A DNA stretch of 12,769 nucleotides from Actinomycetes bacterium (lineage in GTDB: Bacteria > Actinomycetota > Acidimicrobiia > Acidimicrobiales > Palsa-688). A program made the translations under genes and the position numbers. Location: contig JAKBBS010000091.1 in the NCBI GenBank assembly GCA_021808425.1, forward strand, positions 1 through 12,769, in the 5' to 3' direction. Positions 2 through 12,594 of this stretch are shown here, piece by piece. Position 1 is the first letter of the stretch; every line of letters starts with the position of its first letter. The notes beneath the pieces are model-generated. The model worked only from the letters and a program-made list of their open reading frames with translations, ran no database searches and was not told where the DNA came from.

Positions 2-1666
2 GCGGAGTGCCACAGCACCTCGTCGATCTTCCGCGGCTACAGCGTCTTCATGAAAGGCAAAGATCCCCGCGACGCCCACTTCATCACCAGCCGGATCTGC
101 GGTATCTGCGGAGACAACCACGCCACCTGTTCTTGCTACGCGCAGAACATGGCCTATGGGGTGCAACCTCCTGCGCTCGGCGAGCAGATCGTCAACCTTG
201 GTGAGGCGGCCGAGTACATGTTCGACCACAACATCTTCCAGGAGAACCTGGTCGGCGTGGACTTCTGCGAGAAGATGATCGCGGAGACCAACCCGGGGGT
301 CCTCGAGCAGGCCAACCGGACAGAGGCACCCCACGCCGCCGATCACGGTTACAAGACCGTCGGGGACATCATGCGCTCGCTCAACCCCTTCTCGGGCGAG
401 TTCTACCGGGAGGCGCTGCAGGTGAGCCGCTACACCCGGGAGATGTTCTGCCTGATGGAGGGCCGTCACGTGCACCCCTCTACCCTCTATCCCGGAGGGG
501 TGGGGACTACCGCGACGATCCAGTTGTTCACCGACTACTACACCCGGCTGATGCGTTACGTGGAGTTCATGAAGCGGGTCGTTCCGATGCACGACGACCT
601 CTTCAACTTCATATACGAGGCGATGCCAGGCTACGAGCAGGTAGGGCTGCGGCGGACGCTGCTCGGATGTTGGGGGGCGTTCCAGGATCCCTCGGTGTGC
701 AACTTCAACTACAAGGACATGACCAAATGGGGCCGCGCGATGGGCGTCACCCCGGGAGTGGTGGTCGACGGGAAGCTGGTCACAAACGACCTGGTCGAGA
801 TCAACCTCGGGATCCGGATCCTGCTCGGACATTCGTTCTACGACGACTGGGAGGACCGGGAGATGTTCGTCACTCGCGACCCTCTCGGCAACCCGGTCGA
901 CCGCCGCCACCCCTGGAACCAGACCACGATCCCGCAGCCCCAGAAGCGGGACTTCGACGGCAAGTACAGCTGGGTGATGGCGCCCCGCTGGTTCGACGGC
1001 AAGGACCACCTCGCGTTGGACACCGGAGGCGGCCCGCTCGCAAGGCTGTGGTCGACGGCGTTGTCCGCCCTGGTCCACACCGACCATCTGGATGCCACCG
1101 GCACCGGCGTGGTGATCCACTTGCCGAAGACAGCCCTGCGCCCCGAGGTGACCTTCGAGTGGAAGATTCCGCAATGGTCGAACACCATCGAGCGGGACCG
1201 GGCGAGAACCTACTTTCAGGCTTACGCGGCTGCGGCAGCCCTCGATTTCATCGAGAAGGCGCTGGCCGACATCCGGGCCGGCAAGACCAAGACTTGGGAG
1301 CCCTTCAAGGTGCCCGACGAGGCGATCGGCTGCGGCTTCACCGAGGCGGTCCGCGGGGTTTTGTCCCACCACATGGTGATCAAAGGTGGCAAGATAGCCA
1401 ACTACCACCCGTACCCGCCGACGCCGTGGAACGCCAACCCCCGCGACATCTACGGCACTCCGGGCCCCTACGAGGACGCTGTGATCGACACCCCGATCTT
1501 CGAGGAGAACGACCGCGAGCACTTCAAAGGCATCGACATTATGAGGACGGTTCGCAGCTTCGACCCGTGCCTGCCGTGTGGGGTCCACATGTACCTCGGA
1601 GGAGGCAAGGTGCTACAGCGGCTGCACTCACCCACGCAGGTGGCCGAACCCGAGCTCGCATCCTGA
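2..1666 (+). CDS. hhyL: Group 1h [NiFe]-hydrogenase large subunit, 5'-truncated by the window edge
   Basis: Catalytic subunit that splits H2 at the Ni-Fe site, partnered by an Fe-S small subunit whose gene is probably just upstream. The frame is open from base 2 with no start, so the N-terminus is missing; 554 residues remain. The L1 motif RICGICGDNH lies at partial residues 31-40 (Cys33, Cys36). The L2 motif DPCLPCGVH lies at residues 521-529 (Cys523, Cys526, His529). These four cysteines are the expected nickel ligands. After His529 a 25-residue tail begins MYLGGGK, which the family protease normally removes. The GDNHATCS context after L1 and the DPCLPCGVHMYLG ending are typical of group 1h enzymes (recalled, not searched). 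The ATG at 50 is internal, because conserved sequence (AECHSTSSIFRGYSVF) precedes it. The maturation genes downstream support the call. Confidence 0.95.
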   Translation, partial: AECHSTSSIFRGYSVFMKGKDPRDAHFITSRICGICGDNHATCSCYAQNMAYGVQPPALGEQIVNLGEAAEYMFDHNIFQENLVGVDFCEKMIAETNPGVLEQANRTEAPHAADHGYKTVGDIMRSLNPFSGEFYREALQVSRYTREMFCLMEGRHVHPSTLYPGGVGTTATIQLFTDYYTRLMRYVEFMKRVVPMHDDLFNFIYEAMPGYEQVGLRRTLLGCWGAFQDPSVCNFNYKDMTKWGRAMGVTPGVVVDGKLVTNDLVEINLGIRILLGHSFYDDWEDREMFVTRDPLGNPVDRRHPWNQTTIPQPQKRDFDGKYSWVMAPRWFDGKDHLALDTGGGPLARLWSTALSALVHTDHLDATGTGVVIHLPKTALRPEVTFEWKIPQWSNTIERDRARTYFQAYAAAAALDFIEKALADIRAGKTKTWEPFKVPDEAIGCGFTEAVRGVLSHHMVIKGGKIANYHPYPPTPWNANPRDIYGTPGPYEDAVIDTPIFEENDREHFKGIDIMRTVRSFDPCLPCGVHMYLGGGKVLQRLHSPTQVAEPELAS

Positions 1667-2954: not shown

Positions 2955-3589
2955 CGAACCTCGCTTTCGAGATTGTCGGCGCCCGGGCCGAACCCCACGC
3001 CGCCGTCCCGACCATCGCCTTCCGCCTGGCGTTAACCGAGACCGAGGGTACCCCGGTGCACGCCGTTGCCCTGCAATGCCAGATCCGGATCGAACCGAGG
3101 CGACGGCTGTACGATCCTTCGGACGAGGAGCGTCTCTACGGGCTTTTCGGAGAGACACCGCAGTGGGGGAACTCGCTCAACCCGTTCCTATGGACCCATG
3201 TTTCGACGACGATCGCGAGCTTCTCTCGATCCACCGAGGTCGACCTTGCGGTGCAGTGCAGCTATGACCTCGAGGTGGCGGGTGCCAAATACATGCACGC
3301 TTTGCGCGACGGCGAGATTCCACTGCTGTTCCTTTTTTCCGGGTCGGTGTTTGCGAGTGGCAGCTCGGCGTTTGCGTTCGAGCGGGTGTCGTGGGAGCGG
3401 GAATCGCGCTACCGGCTGCCAGTGACCGTTTGGCGGGAAGTGATGGACCTGTACTATCCCGGCGGCGGATACTTGAGACTTAGCAGTGAGGTCATCGACC
3501 GTCTGGAGGCGTTCAGGACCCGCCGGGCTCTTCCCACATGGGACCAGGTCCTGGAGCAATTGCTCAAAGAGGCCGGGGAAGTCGACTGA
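2951..3589 (+). CDS. DUF6084-family hydrogenase-cluster protein
   Basis: 212-aa soluble protein that I recognise as DUF6084, an uncharacterised family found beside DUF5947 in group 1h hydrogenase loci. The start FEIVGARAEPHAAVPTIAF is typical. Other landmarks are the basic IRIEPRRRLYDPSDEERLYGLFG stretch (46-67), the aromatic QWGNSLNPFLWTHV segment (71-84) and the YYPGGGYLRLSSEVIDRL segment (168-185). The two cysteines (43, 103) are not arranged as a metal motif. Alternating hydrophobic stretches suggest a largely beta fold (inference). The start codon shares ATGA with the preceding stop, and the stop shares one base with the next start (TGATG, 3587-3591), so expression is probably coupled to both neighbours. 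The constant co-occurrence suggests assembly or stabilisation of the hydrogenase, but nothing in the sequence shows a catalytic site. Confidence 0.83.
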   Translation: MTNLAFEIVGARAEPHAAVPTIAFRLALTETEGTPVHAVALQCQIRIEPRRRLYDPSDEERLYGLFGETPQWGNSLNPFLWTHVSTTIASFSRSTEVDLAVQCSYDLEVAGAKYMHALRDGEIPLLFLFSGSVFASGSSAFAFERVSWERESRYRLPVTVWREVMDLYYPGGGYLRLSSEVIDRLEAFRTRRALPTWDQVLEQLLKEAGEVD

Positions 3590-5010
3590 TGCGTTCATCG
3601 CTGTTCGATCGCCTGGACGTGGCACGCGCCGTGGCCGACGCGGTCCTCTACGAAGGCTACGTCCTCTACCCGTACCGGGCGTCGTCGAAAAAGAACCAGT
3701 TCAGATGGCAGTTCGGCGTCCTCGTCCCACCGGCGTTCTCCGATCTGGACAGTTCAGAGCGCTCGACGGTGACCACCGAATGCCTGCTAAACCTCAGCGG
3801 CGAGCCGTCGGTCGGGGTGCGCGTTCGTTGCCTGCAGGGGCAGCGCCGAACGGTTGAGGAGGCGACGGCGGTTCCTGGCGAGTACGCAGAGGTGGACTTC
3901 CTCCTGACCGACCGGAAGAAGCTCGTGGCATGGGACGAAGCCGTCGACCAGGTCGTTGACCTCGGCCCGCTCGAACTTGTCCGAGGCGCCGGCCGGGCGC
4001 AGCGAGAATTTTTCTTCGAGGCAGGTTCGGACTGCGAGATGGTAACGGCGGCCGACGGTGGGATCGCCGGTCGTTTGGTTCGAACCCGTGAACGCGTTAC
4101 TGGGCATCTGCAGGTCGAAGTCGTCGCCCTCGAAGGCGAGGCCCGCCTTTCACGAGTAAGTGTCACCGTCGAGAACACCACGAGGTGGGGCGGCGACACC
4201 GGCCCGGTCTCGGGGGTGCATCGGCGCGACGAGGTGCTCCCGTTCTCGCTCGTCGCGGTACATACCATGCTGGCGGCAGACGGGGCGACCTTCGTGTCGA
4301 TGCTCGACCCCCCCGAGCGCTTCGAGCAGGCGGTCTCGTCCTGCCGGAATACCGGCACATTCCCGGTGCTGATCGGCACGGGAGACGTCATGTTGTCGTC
4401 GCCGATCATCCTCTACGACCAGCCCGAAATCGCAGCGGAAAGTCCCGGAGATCTCTACGACTCCACCGAGATCGACGAAATTCTCGCGCTTCGGGTCCTG
4501 ACATTGACCGACGAGGAGAAAATGGAAGCTCGCGGCACCGACGCCCGCTCCGCCGCTATCGTCGACCGTTGCGACGAGATGTCCCCCGCGACCTGGGAGA
4601 GACTCCACGGGGCGGTTCGATCTACCCGCGAGCCCTCCTTGCATGGCGGCGACGAATGGCAGGACCCGGTGCCGTGGTGGGATCCCGACGCCGACAGCTC
4701 GGTCGACCCGTGGAGTGACACGGTGGTTGTCGACGGTTCGGTGCTGGCGCAGGGGAGCGCGGTGATACTAAGGCCGAAGCGGCGTTCGGACGCGCAGGAC
4801 ATCTTCCTCGACGGCCTGTGCGCCACTGTGGCCGGAGTATTCAAAGACGCTGAAGGCAGCGTCTTCGTGGCGGTGACCGTCGACGACGACCCGGCCAGCG
4901 AGGAGCTGGTGTGGCAGGGAAGGTACCTCTTTTTCCATCCTGACGAAGTGGAGACCGTCGACTCGGCGCTCGTCGACTCGGCGCTCGTCGGCGAGGAGGA
5001 CTTCTCATGA
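3589..5010 (+). CDS. Uncharacterised 473-aa hydrogenase-cluster protein
   Basis: I cannot assign a characterised family. Similar proteins sit at this place in actinobacterial group 1h clusters (from memory). Near the N-terminus is the conserved-looking VLYEGYVLYPYRASSKKN (19-36) followed by FRWQFGVLVPP. The middle, about 45-280, is rich in alternating hydrophobic residues and looks beta-structured. Residues 285-305 hold SPGDLYDSTEIDEILALRV and an acidic helical stretch. The C-terminal 90 residues (about 385-470) look like a separate small beta domain: GSAVILRPKRRSDAQDIFLD, then GRYLFFHPDEVE. No membrane helix, signal peptide or Cys cluster is seen. The ATG at 3589 overlaps the previous stop by one base; the open frame continues upstream, but only inside the DUF6084 gene. 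The end carries a 15-bp tandem duplication (VDSAL twice) and overlaps the protease start by ATGA. A structural or assembly role is a guess. Confidence 0.8.
   Translation: MRSSLFDRLDVARAVADAVLYEGYVLYPYRASSKKNQFRWQFGVLVPPAFSDLDSSERSTVTTECLLNLSGEPSVGVRVRCLQGQRRTVEEATAVPGEYAEVDFLLTDRKKLVAWDEAVDQVVDLGPLELVRGAGRAQREFFFEAGSDCEMVTAADGGIAGRLVRTRERVTGHLQVEVVALEGEARLSRVSVTVENTTRWGGDTGPVSGVHRRDEVLPFSLVAVHTMLAADGATFVSMLDPPERFEQAVSSCRNTGTFPVLIGTGDVMLSSPIILYDQPEIAAESPGDLYDSTEIDEILALRVLTLTDEEKMEARGTDARSAAIVDRCDEMSPATWERLHGAVRSTREPSLHGGDEWQDPVPWWDPDADSSVDPWSDTVVVDGSVLAQGSAVILRPKRRSDAQDIFLDGLCATVAGVFKDAEGSVFVAVTVDDDPASEELVWQGRYLFFHPDEVETVDSALVDSALVGEEDFS
4957..4986 (+). repeat. 15-bp perfect tandem duplication in the 473-aa gene
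   Basis: GTCGACTCGGCGCTC occurs twice head to tail, followed by GTCG as the start of a third copy. It is in frame and encodes VDSAL twice, ten residues before the C-terminus. It leaves the reading frame and the ATGA junction with the protease intact. Confidence 0.95.
4993..5000 (+). promoter_or_regulatory. Ribosome binding site of the hydrogenase protease gene
   Basis: GAGGAGGA lies six bases before the ATG at 5007. It sits inside the 3' end of the preceding gene and fixes the protease start at the ATGA overlap. Confidence 0.7.
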
Positions 5011-5674: not shown

Positions 5675-6010
5675 GTGCACGAACTAGGACTGTGCGCGTC
5701 GATCGTGGACGCGATCGAGCGCCGGGCCGGAGAGCGCCCGGTGGCGGGTGTGCGGGTCCGGGTGGGGCTTCTCCACCATGTGCACCCAGAAGCGTTCGAG
5801 CAGTCGTTCGCTGTCGCGGCGATGGGAACTGTGGCCGAGGACGCTAGCGCCGACCTGGTTCTCATCCCGGTCCAGGCTCGCTGCGGATCGTGCGGCCACT
5901 CGTGGTCATGCGACCTCGTCCCGGTCGCGTGCCCGCAGTGCCAGGCGGTGCAGGTCGACCTGACCGGCGGGGATGAACTGGTCCTGGAGTCGATCGAATA
6001 CAGAGGCTGA
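5675..6010 (+). CDS. hypA: Hydrogenase nickel-incorporation protein HypA
   Basis: 111-aa metallochaperone that brings nickel to the large-subunit precursor, normally together with the GTPase HypB. The start is GTG at 5675, which gives the required M-H-E terminus: His2 is the nickel ligand and must directly follow the initiator. AGGTGAG at 5665-5671 can serve as the ribosome site. The structural zinc site is CGSC (Cys70, Cys73) and CPQC (Cys86, Cys89). The length is normal for HypA. It follows the 34-aa gene after 63 bases in which I see no promoter or structure that I would defend. It is followed nine bases later by hypC. No hypB is found between them or elsewhere in the window. Confidence 0.94.
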   Translation: MHELGLCASIVDAIERRAGERPVAGVRVRVGLLHHVHPEAFEQSFAVAAMGTVAEDASADLVLIPVQARCGSCGHSWSCDLVPVACPQCQAVQVDLTGGDELVLESIEYRG

Positions 6011-6019: not shown

Positions 6020-6310
6020 ATGTGCTTGGGCATACCCGGACAGGTTGTCGAGTTCGTGGACACCAACGACCAGCTGGCCCGCGTCGATGTCTCCGGCGTC
6101 ACCCGGCTGATCAACATTGGACTACTCGAAGACGAGGGTCTGGAGCTAGGCGACTGGGTGCTCATCCACGTCGGTTTCGCAATGTCGAAGATCGACGAGG
6201 AGGAAGCCGCGCGGGCACTTGCGTCCCTGAAGTTGATGGGCCGCGACTACGACAACGAGCTCGAAAGTTTCTGGTCCTCGAGGATCACCGCGACGTCATC
6301 GGGAGGCTGA
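6020..6310 (+). CDS. hypC: Hydrogenase assembly chaperone HypC (HypC/HybG/HupF family)
   Basis: 96-aa chaperone that works with HypD to build and carry the Fe(CN)2CO unit to the large subunit. It begins with the hallmark MCLGIPGQVV, in which Cys2 becomes essential after removal of Met. The OB-like core continues through RVDVSGVTRLINIGLL and GDWVLIHVGFAMSKIDEEEA. The last 25 residues (after KLMGRDYDNE) extend slightly beyond the usual short HypC. The ATG has a near-ideal ribosome site. The stop is one base before the ATG of a 28-codon small ORF and 98 bases before hypD. A second HypC-like domain is present in this operon as part of the fusion gene at 10030. Confidence 0.95.
   Translation: MCLGIPGQVVEFVDTNDQLARVDVSGVTRLINIGLLEDEGLELGDWVLIHVGFAMSKIDEEEAARALASLKLMGRDYDNELESFWSSRITATSSGG
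6301..6306 (+). promoter_or_regulatory. Ribosome binding site of a possible small ORF
   Basis: GGGAGG lies five bases before the ATG at 6312 and inside the last codons of hypC. It is much better than the site available to hypD (AGGG at 6397-6400). Confidence 0.55.
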
Positions 6311-6408: not shown

Positions 6409-7548
6409 ATGCGCTTCGTCGACGAGTACAGGGATCCTGTTGCCGCGCGAGGTCTCGTCTCGCGCATAACTGAGTTGGCGGGGGGTGAACATTTTAAGTT
6501 CATGGAGGTGTGCGGGGGCCACACCCACACCATCTACCGCCACGGCATAGAGCACCTCGTCCCGCCCAACGTGGAACTGGTGCACGGTCCGGGCTGTCCG
6601 GTCTGCGTGATCCCGATGGGCCGGATAGACGACGCCATTTCGGTTGCCAAGCGGCCGGGGGTGATCTTCACATCTTTCGGCGACATGATGAGGGTTCCGG
6701 GTAGCGGCGGCAACCTGCTGAAAGCAAAAGCCGAGGGCGCCGACGTGCGGTTCGTCTACTCGCCTCTCGACGCTTTGCGCCTGGCGGTCGACAATCCTGA
6801 CCGTCAAGTGGTGTTCTTCGCTGTCGGGTTTGAGACCACCGCCCCGTCGACAGCGGTCACCTTGGTCCAAGCGTCGAGGCGACGGGTTGCCAACTTCACC
6901 GTGTTCTGCAACCACGTGACCATAGTCCCGCCAATCAGGGCGATCCTTGAATCGCCTGACCTCCGACTCAACGGCTTCCTCGGACCTGGCCACGTGTCTA
7001 CTGTGATTGGGCAGCGCCCATACCGCTTCGTGCCCGGCGTGTACCACAAGCCGTTGGTGACAGCCGGCTTTGAGCCGTTGGACATTCTCGTCGCGATATC
7101 AATGCTCCTGGCACAGATCCGCGAGGGTCGCTGCGAGGTCGAGAACCAGTACTCCCGGGTTGTGAAAGACGAAGGCAACCCCCGTGCCCTTGCCCTGCTC
7201 GGCGAAGTGTTCGAACTCCGGCCACATTTCGAGTGGCGGGGCCTGGGTTTCATCTCGCAGAGCGCCCTCAAACTCCGGGGGGAGTTTGCCGACTTCGACG
7301 CCGAGTTGCGCTTCGAGATCCCCGGGGTGCGCGTCGCCGACCCGAAAGCCTGCCAGTGCGGAGAGGTACTAAAAGGGGTGATACGGCCGTGGGAGTGCAA
7401 AGTGTTCGGCACCGCCTGCACGCCTGAGACACCGATCGGGACGTGCATGGTCTCCTCGGAGGGCGCCTGTGCCGCCTACTACAACTTCGGCCGGATGCAC
7501 CGCGAGGTGGCTGTGAGCATGGGCCGCGCGAGTCCGGTCGGGGTGTGA
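6409..7548 (+). CDS. hypD: Hydrogenase formation protein HypD
   Basis: 379-aa [4Fe-4S] protein that, with HypC, assembles the Fe(CN)2CO group. It begins MRFVDEYRDP, a typical HypD start. Conserved landmarks in order: FMEVCGGHTHTIYRHG (Cys35), VHGPGCPVCVIPMG (Cys63, Cys66), FTSFGDMMRVPGS, FFAVGFETTAPSTA, FCNHVTIVPP, GFLGPGHVSTVIG, and a C-terminal cysteine-rich part with CQCGEVLKGV, GTACTPETPIGTCMVSSEGACAAYY that supplies the Fe-S ligands. The length fits the family (about 370-380 aa) and there is no break. Only AGGG at 6397-6400 is available as ribosome site, so expression may depend on coupling with upstream translation. The stop overlaps the GTG start of hypF. Confidence 0.96.
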   Translation: MRFVDEYRDPVAARGLVSRITELAGGEHFKFMEVCGGHTHTIYRHGIEHLVPPNVELVHGPGCPVCVIPMGRIDDAISVAKRPGVIFTSFGDMMRVPGSGGNLLKAKAEGADVRFVYSPLDALRLAVDNPDRQVVFFAVGFETTAPSTAVTLVQASRRRVANFTVFCNHVTIVPPIRAILESPDLRLNGFLGPGHVSTVIGQRPYRFVPGVYHKPLVTAGFEPLDILVAISMLLAQIREGRCEVENQYSRVVKDEGNPRALALLGEVFELRPHFEWRGLGFISQSALKLRGEFADFDAELRFEIPGVRVADPKACQCGEVLKGVIRPWECKVFGTACTPETPIGTCMVSSEGACAAYYNFGRMHREVAVSMGRASPVGV

Positions 7549-10040
7549 CCCCTCCAGCCCTTCCGGGCGCGTTGGCCCCACTCGCGTCGGCGTCGCGAGC
7601 ACGCGAAACGGGTCGCACCGTTCGCCGCCGGATAACGGTGGCGGGGGTCGTGCAGGGCGTCGGGTACCGCCCCTTCGTACATCGCCTGGCCGGCGAGCTT
7701 TGCCTCGCGGGCCATGTCGGCAACGACACCGGAGGCGTATTCGTTGAGGTGGAGGGGAACGAGACCGCCGTCGGATCTTTCGAGTCCCGCCTGGCGACCG
7801 ACGCGCCGCCGCTCAGCCGGGTGGAGCGGGTCGAGGCAGTGGCACTCGAGGTGCTGGGGGAGAGCGGTTTCCGCATCGTGGATAGCAATCCCTCCATCGT
7901 GGATAGCAATCCGTCGGGAGCGTCACGCACCTTCGTCTCCCCCGACGTCGCTGTTTGCGACGACTGTCTTAGGGAACTGTTCGAGCCGGCCGACCGCCGC
8001 TACCGGTATCCGTTCATCAACTGCACCAACTGTGGTCCCCGCTTCACTATCACCATCAGGTTGCCCTACGACCGGCCCAACACCACCATGGCCGGATTCA
8101 CCATGTGCGGCATTTGCAGCGCGGAGTACCACGATCCCGCCGACCGCCGCTTCCACGCGCAACCGATCGCCTGCGAGGAATGCGGACCGCGGATGCGCTA
8201 CGAGAGCGCAGGAGGGACCGTCGAAGGCACCGACGCGGCCGTAGCTACAGCCCAGGCGGCGCTTCGAGCCGGGCGGATCGTCGCCGTGAAAGGGCTCGGC
8301 GGCTACCACTTGGCGTGTGACGCCACCTCGGACGCCGTGGTGCGAGAACTGCGGAAACGCAAGGGCCGCATGGACAAACCGTTCGCTGTAATGACAGCTG
8401 ACCTCGATCGGGCTCGCAGTCTCGCTCGAATCACCGATTACGAAGCCGAGGTGCTCGCGAGCCCTGCCAGGCCGATCCTCTTGGTGGCAAAGCGCGACAA
8501 CCCTTGCGATCCCAGCGAAGGACGGTTAGCGCTGGCCGAACCCGCACCGGCCGAAGTCGCGCTGGGCGGATGCGCACTGGCGGAATCAGTCGCACCGGGC
8601 AACCCATGCGTGGGCATCATGCTCCCCTACACCCCGGTCCACTACCTCCTCTTCGCTCGTGGCCCCGGATCGCCGGACTCTTTGCCAGAAGTCTTGGTAA
8701 TGACCAGCGGCAACCTGAGCGAGGAGCCGATATGTTATGACGACGCGGAAGCCAGGAGACGTCTGGCGGGCATCGCCGACGGTTGGCTGGTCCATGACCG
8801 CCCCATCCACGTCCCCTGCGATGACTCGGTGCTGCGAATCGACTCCGGGGAGCAGCTTCCGATCCGGCGGTCACGGGGTTTCGCTCCGCTCCCGGTGAAG
8901 CTGCCGATCGCGGTTCCGCCGACGCTTGCGACAGGTGGGGAGCTCAAGAACGCGTTCTGCGTGGCAGAAGGCAACGACGCATGGATGAGCCAGCACATCG
9001 GCGACATGGGCAGCGTCGAAACCCTCCACGCGTTCGAGCGGTCGGTCGAGCAGTTCACGGACATCTACCGGATCCTCCCGGTTGTCGTAGCAGCCGACGC
9101 CCACCCCCTCTACCAGGCCCGGGTCTGGGCCGAAGGCCACAGCATTCGGCCGGTAGCCACCGTCGGGCACCACCACGCTCACGTCGCCTCGGCAATGGCC
9201 GAGGCCGGTGTCTCAGCCGACGAGCTGGTGATCGGCTTCGCGTTCGACGGGACCGGCTACGGCTGCGACGGCGCTATCTGGGGCGGTGAAATGCTCCTCG
9301 CCGGTTATCGGGATTACACGAGGGTCGGTCATCTGCGCTACGTACCTCTGCCGGGAGGCGACGCCGCGATCCGCAAACCCTACCGGGCGGCACTAGCCCA
9401 GCTGTGGGCGCTGGGCATCCCGTGGGACGAGCGGCTGGCGCCGGTGGCTGCGGCGCCTCCCGCCGAGCTGGAAGCGTTGCAACGACAGCTCGAGCGCGGG
9501 ATCGGCTGCGTAGCGACCTCCAGCATGGGCCGGCTCTTCGACACAGTCAGCTCGATCCTCGGCGTTCGCCAAACCGTCTCGTTCGAAGCGCAAGCGGCGA
9601 TCGATCTCGAAGCGCTGGCCGCGTCGTGTGGCAAAGCGCGCCGCTGCTACCGATTCGAACTTCACGGTGCCGAGTGGGATCACGGGCCCGTGTTGAAAGC
9701 CGTGGTAGAGGATCTTCTCGACGGTTGCGGAGTCGAGGCCGTCGCCAGCGGCTTCCACCACGCGCTTGCCACACTTGTCGGCGATGCCGCGGATGCCGCC
9801 CGATCGCAGGCCGGGATCAACCGGGTGGTGCTGAGCGGCGGGGTATTCCAGAACATTCTGCTCCTGCGCCTGGCACGCGAAGAGTTGCTGAGGCGGGACT
9901 TCAGGGTGATCACCCACCGGCTGGTGCCCCCCAACGATGGAGGGCTTGCCCTCGGACAGGTGGCGGTCGCAGCGGCCCAGACTCGTCTGTCGAACCGAAG
10001 CGGTGCGCCCGTAGCACGGCAGTCCGGGAATGAGGCGTGA
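7545..10040 (+). CDS. hypF: Carbamoyltransferase HypF
   Basis: 831-aa enzyme that converts carbamoyl phosphate and ATP into a carbamoyl group on the HypE C-terminal Cys, the source of the cyanide ligands. Domains: acylphosphatase about 27-110 (VVQGVGYRPF at 35-44); two zinc fingers with Cys138/141/160/163 and Cys188/191/210/213; YrdC-like about 228-445 (VAVKGLGGYHLACDA, LPYTPVHYLLF, MTSGNLSEEP); Kae1-like about 460-810 with GHHHAHVAS (His542-His546), FAFDGTGYG, VLSGGVFQN and PPNDGGLALG. The GTG at 7545 overlaps the hypD stop (GTGA); the open frame extends further upstream only within hypD. This leaves 26 residues before the first domain. Oddities: a 21-bp tandem duplication (residues 111-124) and a possible insert of about 30 residues with two Cys in the YrdC region (319-352). 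It ends within the start of the next gene. Confidence 0.95.
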   Translation: MTPPALPGALAPLASASRARETGRTVRRRITVAGVVQGVGYRPFVHRLAGELCLAGHVGNDTGGVFVEVEGNETAVGSFESRLATDAPPLSRVERVEAVALEVLGESGFRIVDSNPSIVDSNPSGASRTFVSPDVAVCDDCLRELFEPADRRYRYPFINCTNCGPRFTITIRLPYDRPNTTMAGFTMCGICSAEYHDPADRRFHAQPIACEECGPRMRYESAGGTVEGTDAAVATAQAALRAGRIVAVKGLGGYHLACDATSDAVVRELRKRKGRMDKPFAVMTADLDRARSLARITDYEAEVLASPARPILLVAKRDNPCDPSEGRLALAEPAPAEVALGGCALAESVAPGNPCVGIMLPYTPVHYLLFARGPGSPDSLPEVLVMTSGNLSEEPICYDDAEARRRLAGIADGWLVHDRPIHVPCDDSVLRIDSGEQLPIRRSRGFAPLPVKLPIAVPPTLATGGELKNAFCVAEGNDAWMSQHIGDMGSVETLHAFERSVEQFTDIYRILPVVVAADAHPLYQARVWAEGHSIRPVATVGHHHAHVASAMAEAGVSADELVIGFAFDGTGYGCDGAIWGGEMLLAGYRDYTRVGHLRYVPLPGGDAAIRKPYRAALAQLWALGIPWDERLAPVAAAPPAELEALQRQLERGIGCVATSSMGRLFDTVSSILGVRQTVSFEAQAAIDLEALAASCGKARRCYRFELHGAEWDHGPVLKAVVEDLLDGCGVEAVASGFHHALATLVGDAADAARSQAGINRVVLSGGVFQNILLLRLAREELLRRDFRVITHRLVPPNDGGLALGQVAVAAAQTRLSNRSGAPVARQSGNEA
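7875..7916 (+). repeat. 21-bp tandem duplication in hypF
   Basis: Copies at 7875-7895 and 7896-7916 match at 19 of 21 bases. In frame they give IVDSNPS twice (residues 111-124), exactly in the linker between the acylphosphatase domain and the first zinc finger, so the fold is probably undisturbed. Confidence 0.95.
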
Positions 10041-10785
10041 CCAGATGAGGTCCCTGGTTGCCGCCGAGATCGGCGAGAGTTTCGGCGAGGACGTGGCGGT
10101 CGCCGCATTGGAAATGGCGAGGCGTTTCGCTGCCGGGGCAACGATGTGGTGTGTCTCGCCCCAGTGGCCGTCGCACGCGCGCCACGTGGCGGTGGAGTTC
10201 GTGCACCCGGTGATCGTAGGCAAGAGGGCCCTGCCGGCCGTTCAGGTCGACGGACCCGACATGGTCGATACCTTGCGCCTTCTGGTTCGAACCGGCGACA
10301 TCCTCGTCGCGATCAGTTCGGGTGACGACCACCTCACCAAACGACTGTTGCTTCGGGCCGGAGCATGGGGGGTGACCAGGTTTTGGCTCGGTGGCGGCCC
10401 ACGCCCGGGCGCCGGGATGGTGGAACATGTCGTCTGGTCGGAGGGGACTGACCCGGCGATATCGGCACGCTCGGGTGACGTGGTGATGCTCTACCACCTG
10501 CTGTGGGAACTGACCCACGTCGCGTTCGAGCATCCCGGCCTGCTCGAAGTGGATCCGACCCGGAGCTCGGCCTGCCCGGATGAAGTGTGCCTCACCTGCT
10601 CCGACGACGCCCAGATTGCCGAGGTGATCGAAGTGTACCCTGACCGGACTGCGTCGGTGCGTACCCGTGGGTCGACCACGACGGTGGATCTAAGTCTGGT
10701 CGAGCCTGCCAGCCCGGGGACCCTCGTTCTGGTCCACGCCGGCGTCGCGCTTACCACACTCGGGGAGGACGCCGATGACTGCTGA
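10030..10785 (+). CDS. SIS-like domain fused to a HypC/HupF-like domain
   Basis: 251-aa two-domain protein. Residues about 25-165 resemble a sugar isomerase (SIS) fold: GDILVAISSGDDHLTKRLL (89-107) lines up with the GDMALGFSTSGGSFNVLRAF part of the next gene, followed by a strand, a loop and a long helix (LYHLLWELTHVAFE). Residues about 185-247 are HypC-like: CLTCSDDAQIAEVIEV, a central strand region and TLVLVHAGVALTTL. Cys182, Cys187 and Cys190 are internal, so the free N-terminal Cys2 of true HypC is not available. It probably helps assemble the Ni-Fe cofactor (inference). The ATG at 10030 overlaps hypF by 11 nt; an in-frame ATG at 10045 is an alternative start. The 3' end overlaps the next gene by 11 nt. 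Confidence 0.8.
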   Translation: MRRDQMRSLVAAEIGESFGEDVAVAALEMARRFAAGATMWCVSPQWPSHARHVAVEFVHPVIVGKRALPAVQVDGPDMVDTLRLLVRTGDILVAISSGDDHLTKRLLLRAGAWGVTRFWLGGGPRPGAGMVEHVVWSEGTDPAISARSGDVVMLYHLLWELTHVAFEHPGLLEVDPTRSSACPDEVCLTCSDDAQIAEVIEVYPDRTASVRTRGSTTTVDLSLVEPASPGTLVLVHAGVALTTLGEDADDC

Positions 10786-11434
10786 GCCGACGGGTTTCCT
10801 CTATCCGTTTATCGACTCCGAGGAGCGCGACGCTGCCGGACTGCTCGACGACCTTGCGGCGTCGGCGCGCTCGAAGGTGGCGATCAGCCGCGAGGTGCGC
10901 GTAGAGTCAATCCGAAGGTGCGGTGAAACCCTCCGGGAGGCGGGGGGCGAGATGGCCCGGGGCTTCGCCCGGGGGGGCCGCCTGTTCGCGTTCGGCAACG
11001 GCGGAAGCGCCACCGACGCGGAGGGGGCAGTCGATCTCTTCCGCCGGCCGCCCCGTGGCCGTCCGCTGCCGGCAGTGTCGCTGGTGGACGACAAGGCGGT
11101 GATCACCGCCTTGTCTAACGACGTCGGCTTCGAGTTGGTGTTCTCCCGCCAGATAATCGCCCACGCCCGACCGGGGGACATGGCGCTCGGTTTCTCGACG
11201 AGCGGTGGTTCGTTCAACGTGCTTCGGGCTTTCGAGGAGGCCAGCAGCCGGGGACTTTTGACCATCGGCTTTAGCGGCTACGAAGGCGGGGCCATGGCAG
11301 CGAGCCGCCACGTCCGGTACTGCCTGGTGGTTCGCTCGGACAGCGTCCACCGGATCCAAGAGTCACAGGAGGCCATCATGTTCGCGCTGTGGGGAGAGGT
11401 ACAGGAACGCCTAGGACAGGAGGGCGGACGATGA
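10775..11434 (+). CDS. SIS-domain protein, GmhA-like, in the hydrogenase operon
   Basis: 219-aa protein with a helical N-terminus (1-60) and a SIS fold of the phosphoheptose isomerase type. Phosphosugar-binding loops are present: FGNGGSATDAEGAVDLF (73-89), ALSNDVGFELVFSRQI, STSGG (141-145) and HRIQESQEA (192-200). Compared with the E. coli GmhA sequence as I remember it, the positions of zinc ligand His61, catalytic Glu65 and catalytic His180 are Gly84, Leu88 and Phe203, so heptose isomerase activity is doubtful. It may bind a sugar phosphate or nucleotide, or pair with the SIS-like domain encoded just upstream (inference). The start has a strong GGGGAGG site (10762-10768), six bases upstream, and overlaps the previous gene by 11 nt. 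The stop forms an ATGA overlap with hypE. Confidence 0.85.
   Translation: MTAEPTGFLYPFIDSEERDAAGLLDDLAASARSKVAISREVRVESIRRCGETLREAGGEMARGFARGGRLFAFGNGGSATDAEGAVDLFRRPPRGRPLPAVSLVDDKAVITALSNDVGFELVFSRQIIAHARPGDMALGFSTSGGSFNVLRAFEEASSRGLLTIGFSGYEGGAMAASRHVRYCLVVRSDSVHRIQESQEAIMFALWGEVQERLGQEGGR
11418..11424 (+). promoter_or_regulatory. Ribosome binding site of hypE
   Basis: AGGAGGG lies six bases before the ATG at 11431. Together with the ATGA overlap it selects this start and thus a HypE with an extended N-terminus. Confidence 0.7.
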
Positions 11435-12594
11435 CCGACGTCGCCGGCCTGGCCCCCTTTGATGGCGCGACCTGCCGGGCAGTCGAGGCGGCGGGGACTA
11501 CCGACGGGCTTAGCTCCTCCAGCTCGCGCGAGGAGGCGGTGTTCGAGCGTATCGAGTCCTTCAGGCGCAGAAAGCCCCGACTGCGCGACGAGGTGGTCAC
11601 CCTCGCCCACGGCGCGGGGGGCAAGGCTTCTGCCGCCTTGCTCGAAGCGGTGTTCCTGCCGGCGTTCAACCCTGGTAACTCCTCGCCGAGAGAGGACGCC
11701 GCGATCGTGCAGCTGCCCGGCGGTGGCAGGCTGGCTTTCACCACCGACTCGTTCGTCGTCAGACCTCTCCGCTTCCCCGGAGGTTCCGCCGGACATCTTG
11801 CAGTGCACGGAACAATCAACGACCTGTCCGTGATGGGTGCCAGGCCTCTCGCCCTTGCGGCCGCTTTCGTGCTCGAAGAGGGGTTCCCGATCGAAGAGCT
11901 GCGCGGACTCGTCGCCGACATGGCCGAAGCGGCGGCCGCAGCGGGCGTGCCGATCGTCACCGGGGACACCAAAGTCGTCGGTCACGGGGAAGCCGAGGGG
12001 ATGTACATCGCGACCTCAGGCGTCGGGATGGTGCCCGAAGGCCGCACCCTGTCCGCCGCCCGGGTGGCACCCGGCGACGTCGTGGTCTGTTCGGGCACTA
12101 TCGGCGACCATGGGATGGCGGTGATGCTCGCCCGGGGCGACTTGGCGCTCGACGCAGACATCGTCTCGGACACAGCTGCCCTGCACCGGCTGGTCGAGCG
12201 GATCCTCGAAGCCGCTCCGTCCACTCGCTGGATGCGTGACGCCACCCGCGGAGGAGTGGGAACAGTCTGCAACGAACTGGCGAAGGACAGCAACCTCACC
12301 GTGGTGCTCTACGAGTCGGCGCTTCCTCTGCGACCGGCAGTTGCGGCCGCCTGCGAACTCCTCGGCATAGACCCCCTGTACGTCGCCAACGAAGGCAAGC
12401 TGCTGGCGATCGTTGCACCCGAGGAGGCGGACGCGGCGCTTGCCGCGATGCGCAACCACCCCCTCGGGATCGACGCGGCGGCGATCGGTGAGATCCGCGA
12501 ACACCCCCCAGGAATCGTAGTGCTGGTCACTCCACTCGGGGGTACCCGAATCGTGGACATGCTCGTCGGGGATCCCCTGCCACGGATTTGCTGA
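11431..12594 (+). CDS. hypE: Hydrogenase expression/formation protein HypE
   Basis: 387-aa ATP-dependent enzyme of the PurM/AIRS superfamily. It accepts the carbamoyl group from HypF on its C-terminal Cys and dehydrates it to thiocyanate, the cyanide donor for iron. The protein ends in PRIC, with the required last residue Cys387. Core motifs in order: VTLAHGAGGKAS (56-67), TTDSFVVRPLRFPGG, GTINDLSVMGARPL, TGDTKVV, GTIGDHGMAVML, MRDATRGGVGTVCNELA. About 55 residues precede the core, including a Ser run and the basic FRRRKPRLRDE; E. coli HypE starts directly at the core. I recall similar extensions in actinobacterial homologues. The start has a strong ribosome site and an ATGA overlap. It is the last gene of the operon in this window. 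Confidence 0.96.
   Translation: MTDVAGLAPFDGATCRAVEAAGTTDGLSSSSSREEAVFERIESFRRRKPRLRDEVVTLAHGAGGKASAALLEAVFLPAFNPGNSSPREDAAIVQLPGGGRLAFTTDSFVVRPLRFPGGSAGHLAVHGTINDLSVMGARPLALAAAFVLEEGFPIEELRGLVADMAEAAAAAGVPIVTGDTKVVGHGEAEGMYIATSGVGMVPEGRTLSAARVAPGDVVVCSGTIGDHGMAVMLARGDLALDADIVSDTAALHRLVERILEAAPSTRWMRDATRGGVGTVCNELAKDSNLTVVLYESALPLRPAVAAACELLGIDPLYVANEGKLLAIVAPEEADAALAAMRNHPLGIDAAAIGEIREHPPGIVVLVTPLGGTRIVDMLVGDPLPRIC

Follow-up and report, generated by a model that had tools for sequence, protein, structure and literature searches.

Why would an operon that builds [NiFe] hydrogenases carry two genes for proteins of the sugar-phosphate isomerase (SIS) type? The question is raised by contig JAKBBS010000091.1 (assembly GCA_021808425.1) of an Actinomycetes bacterium in the Palsa-688 lineage, whose 12,769 nucleotides, analyzed at full length, we refer to as the window. 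One of the two genes encodes a SIS domain (SIS-A) fused to a HypC-like domain (HypC2), and the other encodes a stand-alone GmhA-like protein (SIS-B). The genes overlap by 11 nt and lie between hypF and hypE, a layout that had been described in an earlier reading of the DNA (the sequence-only reading) and that our analysis confirmed. We propose that they probably encode the A and B subunits of a single asymmetric GmhA-like enzyme, with a composite active site, that works with HypC, HypD and HypE. At the level of sequence, the basis for this proposal is the common origin of the two domains in SIS/GmhA folds, their occurrence as one chain elsewhere, and a single-gene form with four metal ligands in other hydrogenase loci.

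The sequence-only reading had taken the two SIS domains to be homologous and the second half of the fusion to be HypC-like. SIS-B matches SIS_2 (PF13580) above its gathering cut-off (46.7 versus 27 bits), and the C-terminal half of the fusion matches HupF_HypC (PF01455; 41.5 versus 28.5 bits), both as expected. The N-terminal half of the fusion has no Pfam SIS or SIS_2 match at E ≤ 10; its SIS likeness, and with it the common origin of the two domains, is supported by fold and by profile-profile comparison. Both have the SIS/GmhA fold, and DiaA is also among the fold matches. The formyltransferase and enoyl-CoA hydratase domains of HypX have no Pfam match in either product at E ≤ 10. A protein database search returned 7981 relatives of the fusion protein among 7997 scored. 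With about 8000 relatives, the fusion represents a family and is not an oddity of this contig.

The metal site of GmhA gives the clearest indication of how the two proteins could work together. Its zinc ligands are His64, Glu68, Gln175 and His183 (stated in a passage of PMC5705639). According to a passage of PMC5387315, each zinc in the Neisseria enzyme has three ligands from one monomer (H61, E65, H183) and a fourth, Q175, from its neighbor. We aligned 245 SIS-A, 245 SIS-B, 6 single-SIS and 5 GmhA sequences; the SIS-A set included 117 of 120 database fusions, with 3 dropped by a motif filter. All four ligands are present in the GmhA (5/5) and single-SIS (6/6) proteins. SIS-A has His64 and Glu68 in every row and His183 in 243 of 245 (2 gaps), and SIS-B has neither His64 nor Glu68 in any row (0/245 for each) and carries Gln175 in 244 of 245 (1 gap). 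In the window, Gln175 is missing from SIS-A, and His64, Glu68 and His183 are missing from SIS-B; neither polypeptide contains all four ligands, as GmhA does, and the pair holds them jointly. SIS-B also has the phosphate-binding loop (Ser, Thr, Ser, Ser) and an Asn-Asp pair in all 245 rows; the corresponding Asn-Asp stretch (NDxG segment) is deleted in 225 of 245 SIS-A sequences. A heterodimer that binds a phosphorylated metabolite had been suggested previously. The invariant loop is consistent with that idea, and the alignment makes it sharper, i.e., the metal site appears to be split residue by residue.

Because SIS-B lacks the His and Glu, the Neisseria ligand scheme predicts one live site per pair (His, Glu and His from A, Gln from B) and a dead mirror site. 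Residues that would serve only the dead site, A-Gln175 and B-His183, are kept in the one-chain forms described below (80/80 and 78/78) and have been lost in the window type (0/119 and 1/122). In L120-L125, the A-Gln175 position holds Lys and B-His183 is retained. At the live site, gaps occur and there are no substitutions. This pattern follows from the predicted composite site and would be hard to obtain otherwise. It is also no simple consequence of fusion to HypC2, since one such fusion, in genome G122, retains both dead-site residues.

The arrangement of the two domains in other genomes was surveyed. The first pass of the genome search scored only 12-16 candidates in large genomes, and some loci were retrieved twice. 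Five architectures were found. (a) A single SIS protein with both motif sets lies between hypC and hypD on plasmids of Cupriavidus necator H16, Mesorhizobium, Afipia, Novosphingobium, Bradyrhizobium and Methylocystis (in the last, between hypF and hypD), and also occurs in Acidobacteriota (L160, L162, L166). (b) A and B form one chain in 78 of the 80 best of 570 loci, ranked by likeness to the Thermus SIS-A, a ranking that favors this form; the other two loci (L041, L085) run off their contigs. According to the record titles, these loci come from Acidobacteriota, Deinococcota, Bacillota, Chloroflexota, Gemmatimonadota, Rubrobacteraceae and others, and the one-chain form was also present in 29 of the 39 SIS-A-positive Actinomycetota genomes sampled. 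(c) A, a free HypC2 gene and B are three adjoining genes (L120, L122, L124, L125). (d) A is fused to HypC2 and adjoins B, as in the window, a Mycobacterium intracellulare plasmid (L001) and four of the sampled genomes (L105, L114, L115, L118). (e) In a decayed form (L143:7044-7715), the SIS-A half lacks the H-x-x-x-E-F and YHLLWE motifs, HypC2 is intact, and no SIS-B was found in the locus, which reads HypF, HypC, fusion, HypE, HypC, HypD.

Over all loci, some of them duplicates, A and B occur together in 125, and a further 6 have B next to an A whose best score is to the single form. A was found alone in four loci, three at contig ends (L041, L085, L127) and one a broken remnant (L126); 13 loci counted as single include 4 GmhA controls. 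In Actinomycetota, A and B are fused or adjacent in 30 of 30 loci. Together with the one-chain count, this supports the earlier pairing of the two domains as partners that act together. The module also extends beyond loci that carry group 1h markers, in that it is present in L001 and L003, which lack the marker DUF6084. Several single loci deserve mention. The L126 remnant (L126:8658-9077) lies 3' of an intact hypCDE set and is followed by no recognizable SIS-B. On a Sulfobacillus acidophilus plasmid, an unannotated SIS-A~SIS-B gene (L003:8929-10050) loses its reading frame close to the 3' end, through either a frameshift or an error in sequencing. Of the 80 SIS loci L009-L088, 64 contain a gene for a glutaredoxin-like protein, called "Uxx-star" in the Thermus record, often between the SIS gene and hypF.

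The SIS module also follows one lineage of HypD. From 155 HypD rows, 139 were labeled by the presence of a SIS gene within 12 kb (16 rows with short flanks were dropped) and 2 identical ones merged. In the resulting tree (137 tips, LG+G4), a branch with SH-aLRT support of 98 sets apart all 84 SIS-linked HypDs; the same side holds 4 of the 53 HypDs without linkage (L143, L149, L161, L179). Linkage requires 5 changes on the tree versus a mean of 42.2 for shuffled labels, and none of 500 shuffles was as low. The sampling was non-random: linked rows came mostly from the SIS search, and unlinked rows partly from chosen large genomes or high HypD scores. Among 296 Actinomycetota genomes, SIS-A was detected (E < 1e-30) in 39 and HypD in 151. 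HypD accompanies SIS-A in 37 genomes; the other two (G195, G270) carry the SIS gene on contigs of 12.7 and 9.8 kb. Among 217 Acidobacteriota genomes, SIS-A (E ≤ 1e-25, a search that misses some single-SIS loci, e.g., L162 in G381) was detected in 6 and HypD in 99. Since SIS-A is far rarer than HypD in both phyla, we rejected the idea that SIS is a general hyp gene.

HypC2 has the motif C..C.D in 46 of 47 domains of the surveyed loci, C.TC.D in 37 of 47, and C.TC.D in all 120 window-like fusions. It scores below the NCBIfam HypC cut-off (TIGR00074; 31.6 versus 48 bits). The sequence-only reading held that the domain lacks Cys2. It indeed has no N-terminal Met-Cys, being C-terminal in the fusion, but Cys187 falls in the HypC Cys2 column, so an equivalent residue is placed internally. 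We infer that HypC2 is a docking or handling domain for the HypC-HypD side. The fusion may have arisen more than once, because that in G122 (L114 and L130, the same place) carries less decayed SIS domains, which suggests a second, independent fusion event. Several phyla have another small gene of the HypC family, free-standing beside hypC or hypD, whose product carries C-x-x-C-x-D internally (L002:6564-6791, L003:6431-6664, and others); these genes look like a distinct subfamily.

Taken together, these features point to an accessory step in building the hydrogenase metal center. A and B would form an obligate heteromer in which they pair as a pseudodimer, possibly doubled to A2B2, and each pair would contain a single live composite site and a dead mirror-image site. 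In the live site, the metal and the catalytic base would belong to A, and B would bind the phosphate and provide the fourth ligand. That the metal ligands and the phosphate loop are retained argues for catalysis, with a phosphorylated small molecule as substrate; the site would most likely run metal-assisted enediol chemistry (isomerization or a similar reaction) on a small sugar or keto compound that bears a phosphate. Action at the HypC-HypD-HypE stage is argued by gene neighborhood, HypD linkage and the HypC fusion. The module would thus have as its partner the HypC-HypD-HypE scaffold of a single HypD lineage. In the lineage of the window, the HypC-type domain fused to A would dock the enzyme on that scaffold.

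Several observations weigh against this proposal. The association of A and B, the metal and the activity are all predicted from sequence comparison. The alignment rows are partly close kin (229 and 231 unique among the 245 and 245), and the HypD tree was a quick one with several long branches flagged. Remains of the phosphate loop persist in SIS-A: the first Ser in 111 of 245 rows, Thr in 41, the third-position Ser in 11 and the last in none. Genome G122 has an A~HypC2 fusion and retains A-Gln175 and B-His183. The model requires that the phosphate loop of a GmhA site come from the same monomer as Gln175, which is probably the case; in the GmhA literature we found no text on the monomer that supplies this loop. 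A hyp gene was found in 76 of the 80 best-ranked stretches and in none of L069, L072, L074 and L078. HypC2 went undetected in 55 of the 79 one-chain loci with HypD and in all 9 single-SIS hydrogenase loci, and is therefore unneeded for the SIS module in general. Finally, no SIS gene was found at L143, L149, L161 and L179, whose HypDs belong to the SIS clade, so the module is dispensable somewhere.

Among other explanations, the one that survives best is that the pair is a non-catalytic gate, in which A:B binds a phosphosugar as a signal and switches HypC-HypD on or off. GKRP, RpiR-type regulators and DiaA use SIS domains without catalysis. DiaA was among our fold matches, and both GKRP and GlmS can be superposed with the one-chain form. 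A pure sensor, however, would need neither a metal site nor a catalytic base, and His64, Glu68 and His183 persist in every A row (apart from the two gaps at His183), including window-type rows with other decay; the single-SIS forms likewise retain the full zinc set. We therefore regard a gate, a role also put forward in the sequence-only reading, as unlikely.

A specific version of the catalytic proposal is that A:B provides a second, HypX-independent route to the precursor of the carbon monoxide (CO) ligand, by metal-assisted enediol chemistry whose phosphorylated substrate would be a sugar or a keto compound, with HypC2 holding the enzyme on HypC-HypD. This is attractive because a review, in the passage concerned, leaves the origin of CO open (PMC12134894), and, if true, A:B would be the accessory that has been missing for HypX-free organisms that scavenge hydrogen in air. 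We consider it doubtful, with odds well against it. In Actinomycetota, a search with the C. necator HypX (L089:1682-3472) at E ≤ 1e-15 gave a match in 1 of the 39 SIS-A-positive genomes, of which 37 have HypD, and in 3 of 114 genomes that are SIS-A-negative and HypD-positive. For Acidobacteriota, the search covered 80 of the 99 genomes with HypD; HypX was absent from all 7 that have a SIS gene and was found in 2 of the 73 for which no SIS gene was detected. Because HypX is rare both with and without SIS, no exclusion can be reported, and SIS as a genome-level substitute for HypX was rejected. The sole SIS-A-positive Actinomycetota genome with full-length HypX is G097 (L123; E 2e-123). Eleven one-chain genomes contained no full-length HypX, with short matches in 10 of 11 (best E 4e-9). 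No HypX match lay beside SIS-linked HypD in the loci surveyed, and neither SIS nor HypX was found in at least four DUF6084 HypD loci (L136, L140, L161, L197). For 60 listed of 122 plasmid HypD records, in which positions were compared by hand, SIS was within 5 kb in 19, HypX in 12 and both in none; nine plasmid records with both have the genes 54-87 kb apart. The plasmids are close kin, and we give this separation little weight. In Acidithiobacillus ferrooxidans, GmhA is elevated during anaerobic growth on hydrogen (a passage of PMC7735108). With this and the absence of exclusion by HypX, the tie to aerobic ligand supply drawn in the sequence-only reading found no support.

SIS-A could also be a dead fold, kept solely as an adaptor that holds HypC2 next to SIS-B or HypD. 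It has lost most of the phosphate loop and the NDxG segment, and HypC2 outlives the SIS-A motifs in L143, which suggests a separate function for HypC2. Yet H-x-x-x-E and YHxxWE are among the invariant columns of SIS-A across phyla, and fusion to HypC2 is the exception among the SIS-A domains surveyed. An adaptor is accordingly very unlikely. The weakest explanation is that SIS-B is a true GmhA of heptose biosynthesis with an incidental place in the operon: such genes are named gmhA in databases and papers (JGI names; PMC5900883, PMC7735108 and PMC5445863 in the parts concerned), but this is hardly credible for a protein that lacks three of four zinc ligands, scores far under the cut-offs of all four phosphoheptose isomerase equivalogs that it matches (TIGR00441 and PRK13936 among those tested; 99.5 versus 209.45 and 107.8 versus 276 bits), belongs to a set of SIS genes that follow one HypD clade, and has hydrogenase and hyp genes as its annotated window neighbors with no heptose or lipopolysaccharide context, when four plasmid GmhAs adjoin glycosyltransferase, gmhB, rfaE or nucleotidyltransferase genes. 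The fusion matches none of these equivalogs.

The window is one end of a [NiFe] hydrogenase operon, as judged by open reading frame calls and Pfam and NCBIfam matches. The order is large subunit (5' cut), NifU-like, DUF5947, DUF6084, a 490-residue protein, maturation protease, hypA, hypC, hypD and hypF, followed 3' by the fusion gene, the SIS-B gene and hypE. The large subunit has the same DUF5947/DUF6084 neighbors as in the C. necator pHG1 locus. If the internal ATG used by P0001 is the start, the fusion has 246 residues. The 490-residue protein (3538-5010), between DUF6084 and the protease, has no Pfam match above cut-off and no NCBIfam match; the same slot holds an unnamed gene in C. necator (L004) and Methylocystis (L159), a likeness by position alone.

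Table 1. Coordinates of window features and the basis for each assignment.
Feature	Position	Strand	Basis
[NiFe] hydrogenase large subunit, 5' end cut by window	2..1666	+	NCBIfam hydrogenase matches
hypA	5675..6010	+	PF01155 E 4.2e-26
Standard hypC, N-terminal Met-Cys	6020..6310	+	PF01455 E 1.2e-25
hypD of SIS-linked clade	6409..7548	+	PF01924 match; HypD tree
hypF, start approximate	7560..10040	+	Five HypF Pfam domains
SIS-A~HypC2 fusion gene, 251 aa	10030..10785	+	Open reading frame call; HupF_HypC match; GmhA fold matches
SIS-A domain, residues about 1-169	10030..10536	+	
SIS-A His52 + Glu56 = GmhA zinc/catalytic His64 + Glu68 (B. pseudomallei numbering)	10183..10197	+	Alignment
SIS-A His156 = GmhA His183	10495..10497	+	Alignment
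HypC-like domain (HypC2), internal Cys187-x-x-Cys190	10588..10779	+	PF01455; Foldseek HypC 3vyr_A E 2e-4; motif counts
SIS-B, GmhA-like protein, 219 aa	10775..11434	+	SIS_2 E 4.2e-12; GmhA PDB chains E 8e-28
SIS-B Asn75...Ser78, GNGGS loop	10997..11008	+	Asn + Ser in 244/245 SIS-B rows
SIS-B Ser141-Ser146 phosphate-binding loop STSGGS	11195..11212	+	Ser/Thr/Ser/Ser in 245/245 SIS-B rows
SIS-B Gln195 = GmhA Gln175, ligand from adjoining monomer	11357..11359	+	Alignment; PMC5387315 (passage)
hypE	11431..12594	+	TIGR02124 405 bits vs cut-off 251.6

Compared with known systems, the pair resembles GmhA (sedoheptulose-7-phosphate isomerase; SIS_2; TIGR00441) in fold, in the phosphate loop of B, and in having the four ligands once per A:B pair, divided as between neighboring GmhA monomers. 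It differs in having two unlike subunits in place of a homotetramer, an inferred single site per pair, scores below family cut-offs, extra conserved motifs in A (VEFVHPV..GKRALPA and YHxLWExxH), and a hydrogenase rather than a heptose operon. Tandem SIS enzymes such as the GlmS isomerase domain and GKRP have two SIS domains packed as a pseudodimer, an arrangement that A:B may share; a predicted model of the one-chain homolog L010 superposes on both over its two SIS domains. Unlike these, the SIS pair lacks the glutamine amidotransferase part, has GmhA-type metal ligands, is linked to HypD and, in the window, consists of two chains. HypC2 shares the fold of HypC/HupF/HybG and the Cys2 column, but is not N-terminal, has an extra Cys in its C-x-x-C, and occurs besides a standard hypC. 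HypX, the CO-forming accessory of aerobic [NiFe] maturation, is likewise an accessory outside HypA-F found beside hypD in O2-tolerant systems, but is unrelated to the SIS pair as a protein.

A gmhA-like gene in hydrogenase operons is already in print, in a figure legend (PMC5900883), in a passage of PMC7735108 and in a table (PMC5445863, MSMEG_2706). These genes of Acidobacteria, A. ferrooxidans and Mycobacterium smegmatis appear to be of the same kind by place and name (putative phosphoheptose isomerase); the parts concerned describe no A/B split, composite site, HypC fusion or HypD-clade link. A table in PMC12727194 lists a SIS cluster of 68 genes in hydrogenase neighborhoods, and a computed association of HypD, HypE and GmhA was termed unclear by its authors (a passage of PMC3231954). 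The C. necator operon was described, in a passage of PMC4377017, as hyp genes, hupD and four unknown open reading frames (PHG066-069), with the SIS gene unnamed. Term searches of the open-licence literature turned up no paper describing a split into A and B, a divided metal site or a HypC-SIS fusion.

Overall, with these data a "gmhA" annotation that had been overlooked becomes a concrete target for biochemistry in hydrogenase loci, including those of the atmospheric-H2 group 1h type. The SIS module follows one HypD lineage across many phyla and comes with a precise, testable residue map. If the predicted composite site is correct, it would be a clear natural case of a homomeric enzyme that became an obligate heteromer, in which one site stays live and the other decays.

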